This document shows positions 4,153-52,726 of a DNA stretch of 64,000 nt, piece after piece. The DNA comes from Mesorhizobium sp. M1D.F.Ca.ET.043.01.1.1 (lineage in GTDB: Bacteria > Pseudomonadota > Alphaproteobacteria > Rhizobiales > Rhizobiaceae). The translations under genes and the position numbers were made by a program. The notes under the pieces were generated by a model. That model ran no database searches. It saw only the letters and a list, made by a program, of their open reading frames with translations, and was not told the DNA's origin. Numbering within the stretch: the first letter of the stretch is position 1; each line of letters starts with the position of its first letter. The stretch covers positions 744,001 to 808,000 of the forward strand of contig NZ_CP034444.1 in the NCBI RefSeq assembly GCF_003952385.1, read 5' to 3'.

Positions 4153-6227
4153 CTACGAGAGGAAATAGTCGCGGCTGGTCGGGATCGGGTTCGGCTTGAA
4201 CCAGCGTGCCTGCCAGTCGGCCGTGGTTCTCAGGAACCCGCCCGAATTGGCAGCCGGCGGCTTTCCCGTTTCGACCAACGACTTGCGCAGGCGGTCCGAG
4301 AGCTTTGCCCGCATCAGATAGTGATCATAGACATCCAGGACATGGACCGCATAGGCAATCGCTAGCGGCTGGTTGCCACGAATGATGAGCAGGTTCTCGT
4401 CGTTCTGGTAGGAAGCCTTGTAGCCGAAGTTGTGGCTGCCGGTGATCACCGTGCAGGCCTTGGCGTCCAGCGGATCGATAACGATGATCTTGTCGTGGAT
4501 GATGGCGTGGCCGGCCGAGAGGAGTTCCGGCCGCAAGTCCCCGGTTTGCATGGTGACGGCGGCGGCGCGGATGACCGCGACGCGGCTGGCATCGCCTCCC
4601 GGCCACCAGACGGCCGGCTGCGGCAGCTTCTTCGTCGTTCCATCGGGCGCAGTGTAGGTTGTGGGCTCGCCGGCCTTGGCCCGCGGCGGCAGCGCCTTCG
4701 GGTCGCTGACCGCTCCCTGGACAAGGAGTTCCGGACGCTCGGCGGCAAGCTTCGCCGCCTCGCCGATGATGTTCTGGACGCCGTTGTAGCCGGGCAGGAA
4801 AGCCAGGAACAGGATCGCGTTGTTGGCATGCTCCATGAGCGAATAGACCCGGCTGAGATCGACGGGTGTCGGCGAATCGGCGTTCTTCGTCTTGGCCTTG
4901 GTGTTCGGCGAGAAGAGCACCTCGACGGTGGTGCCGCCGGCGAGCGTATCGGGTTTGGCCGGCGTTGCGTTCGCTGCGCGAAGCACGGCCCCCTGCACGC
5001 CGTTGTTCTTCTCGAAGCCCGTTAGCGGCTTGTTCTCGTAGGTGACGGTCAGTTCCTGGCCGGCAGGCTGCGGGTCATCGAACAGGCGCTTCCAATAGGC
5101 GAGATATTGTCCGGCCACCTGCCTGTCGTCGATGATGATCGCGTTGTTGGACTGCGTGCACAGGCCGGTCTCGGTCCAGTTCGTGCTGCCGGTCAGGACG
5201 GACTTGGCTACGCCGTTCTCGACATAGATGGCGAATTTGTTGTGACCGATATGCGCCGTGTTGTTGAAGAGCCTGTCCTGCATATTGGCCGCCGAGGCCG
5301 CATGCAGGCCGGCCCGCGCCGCATGGTTCTCGGTGTCCCAGACGACGGGCTGCTTCTGCTCGGGCGGCGTCTTCGGCCGGTTCGGGTCAGTGGAGCCAGC
5401 CGTCGACAGGATCACATGCGCCTTACCTGCCTTGGTCAGCTTGGTCAGGCGCTCGATGAGTTCCGGGTCATGCAGCTCGTAAAGAGCCATGTAGAGCTCG
5501 GCGCCCTTCTTCTTTTCGGCGCGATCGATCATCGACAGGAGGAATCCCAGCACATCGCCGGTGAGAAAGGTCCTGATCTCGTCGTCCTTGACCGGGATGT
5601 GCTTCAGCAGTGTCTCAACAGGCCGGGCGTGAGCTTCGTGGTCGGGCCGGCGGCAACGTTCGCGGGCTTGGTTCCCTGGACCGCCTCAAGCTGCTGCAGG
5701 AGATTCTGCGTGGACAGGATGCCGTTCGTGTATGTGGCGCGCACGCCGGCGTAATCATGCGAAACGTCGATTGACGGCGTGTCGATGGGATCGCCGATCT
5801 TGGCCAGCGGATGCAGCGGTCCTTCGTATCGGGGATTGCCGTTCTCGTCGAGAAAGGGCGCCGTCGGCGAGGCCGGGAGCGCCGGGCGCCCGGGGCCCGC
5901 AAGGCCCACGGGCGTGATCTCGTAATGGACCCTGAAGTCGATGGGGCGCACCTTGGCCGTGTCGCGGGAACGCCGCAGCGTCAGGTCGCGCCATTCATAT
6001 TGCTGGATCGGCCAGACCGAGCTGTCCTGGTCCAGCCAGTTCGGATTCGATTGGTCGGTGAAGCCGATCCAGGTGGGCAGTATTCGGCGCTGCCCGGCCT
6101 CCGGGCCCGTCTCATGCACGCGCGTGATCATGAACCCAACACAATCGGCGATCGGTCCATCGGCCACCCAAGACAGATAGGCGACCTCGCCATTGCACCA
6201 TGCAGTTGCCTTGACCAGCTTCCCCAT
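4153..6227 (-). pseudogene. Phospholipase-D-like (HKD) protein, interrupted by one frameshift
   Basis: The N-terminal part (207 codons, ATG at 6227) ends in frame at 5604. The C-terminal part reads from beyond 5620 to the stop at 4153. The frames join at about 5616-5624, where ...KLTPGL should continue as VETLLKHIPVKDDEIRTFL. One missing base explains the shift, and a restored product would be about 690 aa. The C-terminal part carries two PLD-type motifs, HNKFAIYVE followed by GSTNWTETG, and a canonical HDKIIVID followed by GSHNFGYKAS. This is the two-HKD layout of phospholipase D, cardiolipin synthase or PLD nucleases. The N-terminal 200 residues match nothing I recognise. It is divergent from the DUF3616-patatin pair. 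It may be a decayed gene, a sequencing error or, least likely, recoding. Confidence 0.8.
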
Positions 6228-48454: not shown

Positions 48455-48564
48455 CCGGCCGCCGCGATGGCGTTAACCCCTTCCCGGGACGCAGGACCAA
48501 GGTCGGTGTCGCATTCGCTGCGACTGGCCTATAATCTTTGCCAGTGGCGGGGTGAATCGCGCGT

Positions 48565-49965
48565 ATGCTCAGCGAGACTTTGAAACGACTTTTGCAAGTC
48601 TGGAGCGGGCTGTCGCTGGCCTGGCAGTTCGTGATTGCCGGCGGTATCGGACTTTTGGCCGTGATGCTCGTCGTCGGCCTCTGGGTGACGTCGCAGATCC
48701 GCGAAGGCGTGATGCACAACTCCGCCACCACGACAGCGCTCTATGTCGACAGCGTGATTGCGCCGCTTTTGCCGGACCTGCGCAAGAGCCGTGAGCTCGA
48801 CGACACGGTCAAGCGGGCGCTGGACGAGACGCTTGGCCAGGGCGCGCTCGGCAAGAGGCTGGTGTCGTTCAAGCTGTGGCGGCGCGACGGCACGGTGCTC
48901 TACGCTGACGACTCGTCGCTGATCGGCAAGAGCTTTCCTGCCAACCCGAATCTGATCTCGGCCTTCGGCGGCAATGTCGTGGCCGAGTACAACGACCTCG
49001 ACGACGATCCCGAAGCGGGCGAAGAGAAAGCGGTGAACGCGCCGCTGTTCGAGATCTACAACCCCGTGCGCGAGCCCTGGTCGGGCGAAGTGGTGGCGGT
49101 GTCGGAATTCTATGAGATCGCCGACGACTTCCAGCAGACGCTGAACTCGGCGCTCAGATGGACCTGGCTGGTGGTGGCCGGCGCCACGGCGGCCTCGCTG
49201 GCGCTGTTGTCGGGCATCGTCTTTCGCGGCAGCCGCACCATCCAGACACAGCGCGCAGCGCTCGAGGCCAAGGTCACCGAGCTGCAGTCGGCGCTGGCGC
49301 AGAACTCATCGCTTCGCCAGCGCGTGCAGCGCGCATCGCGCCGCGCCACCGCCATCAACGAGCGCTATCTGCGGCGCATCGGCGCCGACCTGCACGACGG
49401 CCCGGCGCAACTGGTGGCGCTTGCCGCGCTCAGGATGGACAGTCCGGTGCTGGTCGACCCCGCCACGCCCAGACCGCAGCGCGAAGCCGAGATCGCAGGC
49501 ATCCACAAGACGCTCGGCGAGGCGATGCGAGAGATACGCGGCATCTGCAACGGCCTGGTGCTGCCGCAGATCGAGACGCAGGCGGTCGCCGACATATTGC
49601 GGCTGGCGGTCGCCGAGCATGAGCGACGCACCGACACCAAAGTGCTGCTGACGCTGCCGGAGCGCTTGCCCGAACTCGGCACCTCGGAGAAGATCAGCAT
49701 CTATCGGTTCGTGCAGGAGGGGCTGAACAACGCCTACCGGCACGGCAAGGGCAAGGGCCAGCAGGTGAGGGCCACGATGAAGGGCGGCAAGCTTCTGGTC
49801 GAGGTGCAGGACACAGGTCCGGGCTTCAACCCCGCACGGAGCGAAGGCCTGGGGCTCGCCGGCCTCAGGGAGCGTATCGAAAGCATCGGCGGGCAATTCG
49901 AGACGCTTTCGGGTCCTGGAGGAACGAGACTGGTAATCACATTGTCTGTCGAGGAGCAGCCGTGA
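48565..49965 (+). CDS. NarL-type sensor histidine kinase
   Basis: 466 aa. Two membrane helices (about residues 20-45 and 195-220) flank a periplasmic sensor of about 150 aa. The cytoplasmic part is a coiled coil, then the HisKA_3 dimerisation helix with RIGADLHDGPAQLVALAALR (His277), and an HATPase domain with YRFVQEGLNNAYRHGKG and VQDTGPGFNP. The paired response regulator overlaps its stop codon by 4 bp (GTGA). Signal unknown; a duplicated upstream element before two nearby exported proteins makes them possible targets. Confidence 0.92.
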   Translation: MLSETLKRLLQVWSGLSLAWQFVIAGGIGLLAVMLVVGLWVTSQIREGVMHNSATTTALYVDSVIAPLLPDLRKSRELDDTVKRALDETLGQGALGKRLVSFKLWRRDGTVLYADDSSLIGKSFPANPNLISAFGGNVVAEYNDLDDDPEAGEEKAVNAPLFEIYNPVREPWSGEVVAVSEFYEIADDFQQTLNSALRWTWLVVAGATAASLALLSGIVFRGSRTIQTQRAALEAKVTELQSALAQNSSLRQRVQRASRRATAINERYLRRIGADLHDGPAQLVALAALRMDSPVLVDPATPRPQREAEIAGIHKTLGEAMREIRGICNGLVLPQIETQAVADILRLAVAEHERRTDTKVLLTLPERLPELGTSEKISIYRFVQEGLNNAYRHGKGKGQQVRATMKGGKLLVEVQDTGPGFNPARSEGLGLAGLRERIESIGGQFETLSGPGGTRLVITLSVEEQP

Positions 49966-50606
49966 CCACACCCATCCGCATCGCTATTGTCGACGACCAT
50001 CCGCTGTTTCGTGAGGGCGTGGCGCGCAGCCTCGGCGAGATCGGCGGCTTCGAGCTTGTGGGCGAAGGCGCCAGCGCCGAGGACGCCGAAAGGCTGGTCC
50101 GCGGCAGCACGCCCGACGTGCTGCTGCTCGACATCAGCATGCCGGGCGGCGGCCTCAACGCATTGGCCAGCATCCTTTCGGCGGCGCCTGAGCAGAAGAT
50201 CGTAATGCTCACCGTGTCCGAGACCAATGCCGACGTCGCCCAGGCGCTAAAGGCTGGCGCGCGCGGCTATGTGCTGAAAGGCGTCGGCTCCAAGTCGCTG
50301 GCCGAGATCCTGCGCGACGTCGCCAACGGCCAGAGCTACGTCTCGCCGACACTCTCGGCGCGGCTGCTGTCGGACCTCTTGCAGCCCACCAGCCGCAAGC
50401 CCGACCCGCTCAGCCAGCTCACCGGCCGCGAAGCCGAGATCCTGAGGCTGGTGGCCGAGGGCCTGAGCAACAAGGAGGTCGCCGCCCGGCTGTCGCTGCA
50501 GGAAAAGACGGTCAAGCACCACATGACCCGAGTGCTCGCCAAGCTCAACGTGCGCAACCGGACGGAGGCAGCGCTCTTGATGCATGAAGCGAAGGAAAGA
50601 CCGTAG
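49962..50606 (+). CDS. LuxR/NarL-family response regulator
   Basis: 214 aa from GTG 49962. The receiver domain has IVDDHPLFREG, the phospho-acceptor in LLLDISMPGGG (Asp57) and LKAGARGYVLKG (conserved Lys). The output HTH is LTGREAEILRLVAEGLSNKE followed by KTVKHHMTRVLAKLNVRNRT. It is phosphorylated by the kinase encoded just upstream. Length and order are standard for the family. Confidence 0.93.
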   Translation: MTTPIRIAIVDDHPLFREGVARSLGEIGGFELVGEGASAEDAERLVRGSTPDVLLLDISMPGGGLNALASILSAAPEQKIVMLTVSETNADVAQALKAGARGYVLKGVGSKSLAEILRDVANGQSYVSPTLSARLLSDLLQPTSRKPDPLSQLTGREAEILRLVAEGLSNKEVAARLSLQEKTVKHHMTRVLAKLNVRNRTEAALLMHEAKERP

Positions 50607-50757: not shown

Positions 50758-51216
50758 TCACAAGCCCAGCAGACGGGCCTGATCCTTCTCGGTCGCCCGG
50801 CGCTCGACGATGGTGCGGCCTTGCGCATCCGTCATCTCGAAGCGTCCGTTCTCGATCTCTTCCTTCATGCCGTTGCGGTGGGTGACGGTGATCTTATTGC
50901 CGTCGATCTCGACGATGTCGCCCGTCGTCGCATTGACATGGCTGGCGGCACCGCCGCCCGGGTTGGTGTTGCCTTTGCCGTTGTTGTTGCCCGGACCGGC
51001 ATTGGCATTGCCGCCACCGGCATTGCTGTTGCCTGAATTGCCACCGCTGTTGCCGCCACCGTTGCCGCCGCCATGACCGTTGCCGGCATAAGCGGTGGGC
51101 ACCAGAAGCTTGGCGAGGCTATCGGGGGTGAAATGACCAGTCGCGACAACAAGCGCCAGCGCGGCCGCAGCGCGCAGCGTAAGGCGGACAAACCTTCTGG
51201 AGGCGGGTTCGCGCAT
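50758..51216 (-). CDS. Exported Gly/Asn-rich protein, paralogue 1
   Basis: 152 aa. A signal peptide (VRLTLRAAAALALVVATGHF) leads to a cleavage region near TAYAG. A low-complexity segment of Gly/Asn (GNGHGGGNGGGNSGGN...) follows, then a conserved C-terminal domain of about 60 aa: VNATTGDIVEIDGNKITVTH, RNGMKEEIENGRFEMTD, RTIVERRATEKD. The same layout occurs at 51934. The C-terminal domain looks like a short beta repeat and I know no name for it. Likely periplasmic or cell-surface. A 49-bp element shared with its paralogue lies 116 bp upstream. Confidence 0.82.
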   Translation of the reverse strand: MREPASRRFVRLTLRAAAALALVVATGHFTPDSLAKLLVPTAYAGNGHGGGNGGGNSGGNSGNSNAGGGNANAGPGNNNGKGNTNPGGGAASHVNATTGDIVEIDGNKITVTHRNGMKEEIENGRFEMTDAQGRTIVERRATEKDQARLLGL

Positions 51217-51331
51217 GCTATCCTTGGTTCATGCCGGTTCCGCCTCGGCCCTGCCGAAGTTCCGCTCTCAGCCGGGCCAAGGCGAAACCGGTTTACTAAC
51301 CGGAAAAAGATTCACGGTTTGGTAAGCCTAC

Positions 51332-51380
51332 GGAAGCGGCCCACGACCCATGCCATGCCCGGTCGGACCTTTTTAGCAAC
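51332..51380 (-). promoter_or_regulatory. 49-bp upstream element, copy A
   Basis: An 18-bp block (GGAAGCGGCCCACGACCC), a 13-bp variable spacer and an 18-bp block (TCGGACCTTTTTAGCAAC). Each block differs from copy B (52593-52641) at one base, and the spacer is exactly 13 bp in both while its sequence differs. Position is 116 bp upstream of paralogue 1. Likely a promoter or dual activator site; the factor is unknown. Confidence 0.7.
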
Positions 51381-51404
51381 CACCTGGGGACCATCGTCGC
51401 AACT

Positions 51405-51502
51405 AGAGCGCGTCGCGGTGAAGCGTACCCAGGCGACGCGCTTAGTCCTTATTTTGCGCATGTCACCGTCCCCAAACCGCTGCGCACTTTTGGACGACAT
51501 AC
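51405..51502 (+). repeat. Dispersed intergenic repeat, family R2, copy 2
   Basis: AGAGCGCGTCGC ... GGCGACGCGCTTAGTCC dyad, then TTATTTTGCGCATGTCACCG and CGCTGCGCACTTTTGGACGA. It matches 3848-3955 block for block. The 717-bp gap 51217-51933 holds this repeat, element A and a terminator, and no supported gene. Confidence 0.8.
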
Positions 51503-51763
51503 TTGGAGGGAGAAGGAATTCGAAGCCGCGACTGCAGCTGCGTTAACCAAATCGCTTGGAAATTGTCCGGCAATTCATTATGACTATGGCCTGCGAGAAC
51601 CACGCGGACGCCCAACGAGCCGCGGCATTCTACGGCGCAGCTGTTTCTACTTGGACGCGAAAAGCACCGTAACTCTTTGATTTGCGTATGGATTGTGTCT
51701 TCCCGCCTTGCGGGGCCATGCGCCAAGAGCCCGCCTTACCCGGCAGCCATCCCAAGGGCCCCA

Positions 51764-51790
51764 AAAAGTACCCCCGCCAAAAGGCGGGGG
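51764..51790 (-). terminator. Rho-independent terminator, minus strand
   Basis: Stem CCCCCGCC (51771-51778), loop AAAA, complement GGCGGGGG (51783-51790). On the minus strand it is followed by TACTTTTTGG. It lies about 145 bp beyond the stop of the gene at 51934. Confidence 0.7.
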
Positions 51791-51933
51791 CAAGGTGAGT
51801 AGCGGGAGTTCTGTCATAAGATGATCAGGACCGAAGAGACGAAGCAAAAGGTGGCAACCTGATTTTGCAGCGCTGGCCTTTGGTCCCTTAAAGATCTAAT
51901 CCAGATAGAACCTCGCTCTCACAAACTTTGTTC

Positions 51934-52500
51934 TCACAAACTCTTCAGGCGATTGAGATCGGCCATTGTGGCCTTGCGCTCGACGATGGTGCGACCAAAC
52001 TTGTCCTCCATCCTGAACCTGCCGTCCTCAACCGTCTCCTTCATTCCGTTCCGGTGCGTGACCTGGATCCCGCTGGCACTGACCTCGACCTTGTCGCCGG
52101 TCGCGGCGGTCACATGATCGTCGACATCGGCGGTGCTGCTTGCGGCACTGTTGGAGGCACTGTTCGTTGCGCCCTTGCTGTTGCCGTTGTTGCCGCCCGA
52201 GTTGCTGTTTCCGTTGTTGCCGCCCGAGTTGCCGTTCCCGTTGTTACCGCCGCCGTTACGGTTTCCGTTGCCGCCGCCGCCGCTGTTTCCGCCGCCGCTG
52301 TTTCCGCCCCCGCTATTGCCGCCGCCGCTATTTCCACCGCCGTTGTTTCCACCGCCGTTGCCGTTGCCATTGCCGCCCTTGCCGGCATAGGCCTTGGCCA
52401 CGACAGGACCATCGAGGGAGAGATGAAAAGGCGCGACAACAAGCGCCAGCGCAGTGAGCGCCCGCAAGACATGCCTGCAGCCCATGCGCGATACGCGCAT
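51934..52500 (-). CDS. Exported Gly/Asn-rich protein, paralogue 2
   Basis: 188 aa from ATG 52500, with AAGGGGAGAATGGG upstream. A signal peptide (HVLRALTALALVVAPFHLSL, cleavage near KAYAG) is followed by about 75 residues of Gly/Asn/Ser repeats (GNGNGGGNNGGGNSGGGNSG and so on). The conserved C-terminal domain follows: VTAATGDKVEVSASGIQVTH, RNGMKETVEDGRFRMED, RTIVERKATMADLNRLKSL. It is a longer sister of the protein at 50758, probably by tandem duplication. No membrane anchor; likely periplasmic or surface. Repeat length is prone to slippage. Confidence 0.82.
   Translation of the reverse strand: MRVSRMGCRHVLRALTALALVVAPFHLSLDGPVVAKAYAGKGGNGNGNGGGNNGGGNSGGGNSGGGNSGGGNSGGGGNGNRNGGGNNGNGNSGGNNGNSNSGGNNGNSKGATNSASNSAASSTADVDDHVTAATGDKVEVSASGIQVTHRNGMKETVEDGRFRMEDKFGRTIVERKATMADLNRLKSL
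52160..52385 (-). repeat. Low-complexity Gly/Asn-coding repeat
   Basis: Tandem GGN/AAY-type codons on the minus strand (seen on the plus strand as CCGCCGCTGTTTCCG units of 15 bp and 12 bp) encode GGGNS and NGNGG units inside paralogue 2. A shorter tract lies in paralogue 1 at about 50960-51085. Confidence 0.8.
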
Positions 52501-52592
52501 CCCATTCTCCCCTTGCCAGCCATCCGACCCTTCGGCCGAACTACCCCACCGGCAATGTCGCAGCATCAGCATCCCCAATCAGCGCGTCGTGG

Positions 52593-52641
52593 GGAAGTGG
52601 CCCACGACCCTTGTCTTGTTTTATCGGACCTTTTTCGCAAC
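52593..52641 (-). promoter_or_regulatory. 49-bp upstream element, copy B
   Basis: GGAAGTGGCCCACGACCC, a 13-bp spacer, then TCGGACCTTTTTCGCAAC. It is the counterpart of copy A at 51332-51380, here 93 bp upstream of paralogue 2. The flanking DNA is not similar, so the element is conserved above its surroundings. Confidence 0.7.
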
Positions 52642-52726
52642 GATATCGGACCTAAGTCCTATCTCAACCACCGGATGCGGTCGGGCGCGGCTGCGCGCAC
52701 AGCTTTTTTGGCGGCATGCATCGGGC

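Follow-up and report, generated by a model that had tools for sequence, protein, structure and literature searches.

Response regulators of the NarL family have been described from several bacteria, and some of them can be set beside the regulator considered here. NarL, VraR and DesR have the same domain order as this protein, with which they are matched over their full length among PDB sequences, and their DNA motifs differ from the boxes presented below. DevR/DosR of Mycobacterium tuberculosis belongs to the same family, and its box is a GGGAC..GTCCC palindrome. The base contacts of DosR are made by Lys179, Lys182 and Asn183 (PMC4082495), and the DevR promoters described in PMC3029386 carry several sites each, one of them overlapping the -35 element; some sites are of high and others of low affinity, and they are bound cooperatively. 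OsdR of Streptomyces coelicolor is a DosR-type protein that, like the regulator of this study, comes from outside the mycobacteria, with a 16-nt palindromic box that is said to "conform well" to the DosR box; its consensus AGGGCCGATCGGCCCT, on the other hand, has a different half-site from that found here, and it belongs to another phylum and another regulon (PMC5069765).

The window, the whole stretch of 64,000 nucleotides of Mesorhizobium DNA that was analysed, contains a sensor histidine kinase and a response regulator that are convergent with two Gly/Asn-rich genes (Table 1). The regulator is of the NarL/FixJ type, with the Pfam domains PF00072 (5.7e-21) and PF00196 (2.7e-20), both above cut-off, and its best PDB match is DevR/DosR (3c3w, 5e-38), ahead of NarL. 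Because its helix-turn-helix aligns without gaps to residues 150-209 of DosR, Lys179 and Lys182 of the latter correspond to K182 and K185, and two of the three contact residues are kept, whereas Asn183 is replaced by a histidine, H186. The EKTVK helix, common to this regulator and DevR/DosR, is missing from the eight readable helices of its paralogues (the genome holds nine other NarL-type matches), and EKT[VI]KH[HY] is kept among the aligned orthologues of the regulator (66 and that of the window). The kinase differs from the haem-GAF kinases DosS and DosT of the DosR system, as a Pfam scan at E<=0.01 found kinase domains and no GAF domain in it. No NCBIfam cut-off was reached by the regulator, the kinase or the targets among the matches listed (for the regulator, the best 25 of 92).

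Table 1. Features of the two-component locus and of its target promoters (positions in the window).
Feature	Position	Strand	Remarks
Kinase-operon promoter box	48494..48505	+	GGACCAAGGTCG; ~70 nt before kinase start
-10-like element, kinase operon	48530..48535	+	TATAAT; putative
Sensor histidine kinase	48565..49965	+	HATPase_c above cut-off, HisKA_3 just below cut-off (Pfam)
NarL/LuxR-type response regulator	49962..50606	+	recognition helix EKTVKHH; proposed box binder
Gly/Asn-rich gene 1	50758..51216	-	152 aa
-10-like element, gene 1	51307..51312	-	AATCTT; putative
-35-like element, gene 1	51331..51336	-	CTTCCG; putative
Site 3, gene 1 array	51344..51355	-	TGGCATGGGTCG; 21 bp after site 2
Site 2, gene 1 array	51365..51376	-	CTAAAAAGGTCC; 23 bp after site 1
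Site 1, gene 1 array	51388..51399	-	CGACGATGGTCC
Gly/Asn-rich gene 2	51934..52500	-	signal-peptide-like N-terminus, low-complexity middle, conserved C-terminal domain
-10-like element, gene 2	52568..52573	-	GATGCT; 18 bp after -35-like element; putative promoter role
-35-like element, gene 2	52592..52597	-	CTTCCC; end of block 2; putative promoter role
Site 3, gene 2 array	52605..52616	-	AGACAAGGGTCG; right half starts block 2; 21 bp after site 2
Site 2, gene 2 array	52626..52637	-	CGAAAAAGGTCC; inside block 1; 22 bp after site 1
Site 1, gene 2 array	52648..52659	-	dyad GGACTTAGGTCC; strict-consensus match G000:C1:796647-796659; conserved column block

An earlier, sequence-only reading had described a repeated element of two 18-bp blocks before the Gly/Asn-rich genes and had taken it for a bipartite protein-binding or promoter site. 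Both copies (51332-51380 and 52593-52641, - strand) are exactly as it gave them, with a 13-bp spacer, and a scan of the 7.13-Mb genome matched the pattern at these two places only, with zero matches for the reversed-pattern control; block 1 alone, with up to three mismatches, is not over-represented genome-wide (9 places vs 16 for the reversed control). A protein-binding or promoter element is still the most likely interpretation, but the bipartite form gives way to a three-site array of dyads in same-genus orthologues. The blocks are real, and their borders cut across functional units: block 1 corresponds to site 2, block 2 runs from the right half of site 3 into a -35-like CTTYC, and a third element, 22-23 bp further upstream, had been missed. 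This is site 1, the full dyad in its best and clearest form, GGACTTAGGTCC. Tandem arrays of GGAC-N4-GTCC, a DosR-type box, stand near the -35 region before the targets, where the regulator is predicted to bind. The -10-like element stands 18 bp after the -35-like one, which would place the sites around -50, -70 and -92 relative to a putative transcription start.

The array and its conservation, as well as the synteny and co-occurrence described further on, emerge from the comparison of genomes. Thirty same-genus gene loci (L011-L040, two of them from the source genome) were read, and in 24 a strict pattern of three [A/G]GTC half-sites, at intervals of 22-23 and 21-22 bp or two turns of the helix, is present; among the six that it missed (L019, L024, L029, L030, L031 and L038), the first two have a block-2-like match further upstream and the last has two box-like sites 23 bp apart. 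Across the 24 promoters, mean majority identity at sites 1, 2 and 3 is 0.78, 0.78 and 0.87 (the -35-like part being counted with the third), as against 0.48 and 0.49 for the two spacers; the -10-like part reaches 0.73, and the stretch that separates it from the -35-like element 0.53. CTTYC is nearly invariant, and the A, T and last T of the -10-like columns are conserved. A three-site regular expression gave 88 matches in 77 loci (76 named ones and the window), compared with a mean of 0.4 matches per set in five sets of base-shuffled loci. By the rule of the script, 84 of the 88 precede a Gly/Asn-rich gene or coincide with its start and four are elsewhere, namely about 0.6 kb before a Gly/Asn-rich open frame (L046, L050, L071) or at a contig end (L091). 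In the source genome, a 96-position model of the whole promoter found only the two known arrays, the next best match having E=0.6 (150 of 2694 candidates scored).

The two genes are tandem paralogues with the element before each, as if the upstream region had recently been duplicated along with the gene and had no function. However, the sites are conserved (78-87%) and the spacers are not (48-49%), so recent duplication is no explanation; the sites are kept across many species while the spacers have diverged, arrays also occur in Sinorhizobium and Agrobacterium, and the duplication reading, already contradicted by this pattern of conservation, has a negligible probability. The sequence-only reading had itself doubted that duplication was the whole story, naming absence of the motif from orthologues, or an equally conserved spacer, as what would speak for it; neither was found, because the element is kept before the orthologues of other species while the spacers vary.

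Synteny and the promoter of the kinase/regulator operon point to the protein that may bind the boxes. In a scan of 76 loci from named genomes, the target gene was found by profile in all 76 and the kinase in 69, and the convergent pair stands beside the target in 69/76; the full-promoter profile matches 48 of the 76, all of them among the 54 loci L045-L098. Seven loci lack the kinase (L075, L078, L091, L098, L102, L111 and L112), and in each of the three that were checked (L075, L078 and L098) it is found elsewhere in the genome. A 20-bp strict form of the box, [AG][CG]ACNAAGGTC[GT][AG][AT]GTCGCA, occurs in 38 of 70 kinase upstream regions, that of the window included (the L059 region is cut by a contig end), with a TATAAT-like element downstream of it in relatives, and deeper lineages have two boxes 22-23 bp apart (L082, L094, L096 and L097, and also Sinorhizobium). 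In the source genome, the single box would make the operon autoregulated. The strict box is absent before the kinase in a Mesorhizobium subclade (L077, L079-L081, L086 and L087), and therefore autoregulation is not general.

The adjoining NarL-type regulator is the best candidate for binding the boxes, judging from these sequences. The earlier statement that no regulator with this site is known fails at the level of the family, since the dyad resembles the DosR/DevR box and the recognition helix of the adjoining regulator is DosR-like. It is quite improbable that another, unlinked regulator binds the boxes and that the kinase/regulator pair is a mere neighbour: a few box-like arrays do stand away from the pair, but the convergent synteny, the recurrence of this box, in many relatives, before the pair itself, the co-absence in three genomes (see below) and a DosR-like recognition helix that none of the paralogues read has besides the adjoining regulator all argue for the neighbouring protein. 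The constant spacing of two blocks would also suit the -35 and -10 of a promoter read by an ECF sigma factor, one of the candidates put forward by the sequence-only reading. That assignment is not needed and is very improbable, as there are three like elements instead of two unlike ones, with dyad symmetry and a separate conserved -10-like element downstream, and a like box precedes a TATAAT-like element in the kinase promoter.

Kinase and target tend to occur together. A search with the gene 1 protein found matches in 21 of 41 genomes (21/25 of the same genus and 0/16 outside it), and the kinase is present in 22 of the 25, none of the 21 target-bearing genomes being without it. Both are missing from G005, G006 and G013, and the kinase of G024, where the target gave no match, is 39% identical. 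Same-genus genomes are related, so this co-occurrence does not amount to 25 independent events. A tandem-box model (R2), built without the source genome, was applied to 20 relatives out of 24 (all but G007, G014, G016 and G024) and matched at E<=1 in 17 of them, the three without a match being again G005, G006 and G013. Since E<=1 permits about one chance match per genome, the stricter count matters: at E<=0.05, 15 of the 17 have a match beside a Gly/Asn-rich or Tad-like gene. Twelve of these 15 had supplied training sequences, and G009, G010 and G022 had not; G017 and G020 have the kinase and weak matches only (best E 0.19 and 0.41). In the source genome, at E<=10 and among the 150 of 681 candidates scored, R2 recovered the gene 2 array (3.6e-6) and the gene 1 array (0.094), and the sole other place was a Tad-like promoter (0.037 and 0.257, on both strands). 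Among 33 R2 loci read, three of them from the source genome, 28 are beside a Gly/Asn-rich or Tad-like gene and five are by neither; these five weak matches in relatives (L211, L213, L214, L226 and L227) are possible targets or chance. A genome scan with the strict single box gave no excess (9 vs 18 for the reversed control), and among its matches only L165, with its tandem partners, was kept; the other strong single boxes, L164 and L167-L172, were set aside, as they have no partner at the right spacing.

The Tad-like promoter, at G000:C1:734018 (L165, L196), separates two divergent genes that both have PF13400 (Tad) and DUF7305. Its three boxes are spaced 23 and 21 bp, and it lies about 60 kb from the kinase/regulator operon and about 10 kb to the left of the window. 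Because a similar array lies in its promoter, this divergent pair is a likely further target. Homologues are present in 17 of 24 relatives (21 rows), and 19 upstream regions were examined, the partial rows L193 and L194 being left out: nine (L175-L179, L181-L183 and L186) have two boxes 22-23 bp apart, both above 9 bits, and ten have no such pair. Three of the ten are the second copies L191 and L192 and the contig-cut L190; the rest include L174, which at 83% identity is the closest homologue. The recurrence of like dyads in the Tad-like and kinase promoters also bears on whether the element is a structured RNA leader instead of a DNA site. Weak Rfam scores do occur in the region, but all are below the gathering cut-off, no family reaching it, and the conserved part is upstream of the putative promoter, which leaves an RNA leader hardly any likelihood.

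A weight matrix from 29 distinct Mesorhizobium-type boxes was applied to 28 other loci, of which one, L090, is by name Mesorhizobium denitrificans and thus no true outgroup. A box of at least 12 bits was found in 18 of 59 outgroup promoter regions, a number that counts some genes of L101 and L105 more than once, with 2.4 expected from the 116 matches that the remaining 921 kb gave. The cut-off of 12 bits was set once the outgroup promoters had been looked at a first time, and the background was then recomputed without promoter regions. The module of kinase, regulator, target and boxes recurs in Sinorhizobium, Agrobacterium and Phyllobacterium. On pSymB of S. meliloti there are three sites before the target (22 and 22 bp apart) and two before the kinase (23 bp apart). 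This module (L150) is flanked by minCDE and, on the other side, by a hypothetical gene and then an EAL-domain gene. From the position beside minCDE, we take its locus tags to be SMb21519-SMb21521, for which a literature search found no paper. Boxes precede both genes in A. tumefaciens HAMBI 105 (the third target site read by eye), and S. fredii NGR234 carries three on the target side and two on the kinase side. A second tandem pair, 21 bp apart and farther from the S. fredii target in the upstream direction (L146, ~5276-5310), was read by eye and is perhaps for another transcript.

A box precedes the target in Phyllobacterium and in Ruegeria, where the record shows a pair that is not convergent with that target; L090, L099, L104 and L148 have a box in only one of the two promoters, the boxes of L101 and L105 stay below 12 bits, and none was found in Nitratireductor L147. 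In the Rhizobium group (15 loci: L100, L103, L106-L110 and L113-L120), a box near kinase or target is mostly absent, only L103 (target side) and L115 and L119 (kinase side) reaching 12 bits, despite a nearly identical regulator helix. Much of this group (kinase upstream regions of L113-L120) has other upstream sequence in common, such as TGGAAAA-TTCT...GCGATAGGTATCGG, in place of the box, which suggests that the kinase promoter has been rewired.

Probably, then, the element is where an activator binds in a promoter, and through it the adjoining regulator, phosphorylated by the kinase, switches on both Gly/Asn-rich genes. The working model of the array is taken from the DevR promoters (PMC3029386). 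The identity of the binding protein, activation rather than repression, phosphorylation and cooperativity are inferred. The partner kinase would phosphorylate the regulator, whose dimers would bind the three dyads, set at intervals of about 22 bp along the same side of the helix; the dyad farthest upstream would be strong and the two nearer ones weaker and probably filled cooperatively. Because the last site lies directly against a -35 element of the sigma70 type, the bound regulator would then recruit RNA polymerase and turn the genes on. Repression, with site 3 blocking RNA polymerase until a signal removes the regulator, is unlikely. Site 3 does stand only a short way before the -35-like element, and the kinase-promoter box ends at the putative -35 region, but the -35 and -10 elements are weak and several upstream sites stand in one helical phase, as is typical of activated promoters. 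Moreover, DevR promoters with a site overlapping -35 are activated (PMC3029386). Activation by the adjoining regulator would have in common with DevR two or more boxes per promoter, a start-proximal box overlapping -35, and autoregulation (PMC3029386, PMC5069765). Differences are found in the output, since the targets here are Gly/Asn-rich proteins, apparently exported, and Tad-like ones, and in the size of the regulon, a handful of promoters here compared with about 48 genes for DosR (PMC4973870).

The starts of the Gly/Asn-rich genes were chosen by inspection from signal-peptide-like N-termini, which also suggest that the proteins are exported. They belong to no Pfam family, and "glycine-rich cell wall protein" and "hypothetical" are the database names among the 120 of 203 matches listed. 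The last 66 residues, the C-terminal domain, are conserved and are confidently predicted to form six strands and a helix (pLDDT 92), with no PDB match at E<=0.001 (best 0.03). The low-complexity Gly/Asn tracts (50945-51080 and 52170-52385) vary in length between species.

These sequences are best read as a small two-component regulon that governs surface proteins and is in part autoregulated. More tentatively, and rather less likely than not, an undescribed two-component system of Rhizobiales and Rhodobacterales may run a small cell-surface programme by means of DosR-type triple-box promoters, the exported Gly/Asn-rich proteins, with their beta-sheet C-terminal domain, and the Tad-like proteins forming an extracellular or envelope structure. 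A search of mainly openly available literature, PMC11387232 included, found no description of such a system. The two-component system gains a predicted binding site, a promoter layout and a list of targets, and common laboratory rhizobia, S. meliloti for example, would allow these predictions to be tested. They would also place a DosR-type box architecture far from the mycobacteria and make a "hypothetical" family of Gly/Asn-rich secreted proteins a regulated output with a defined partner.
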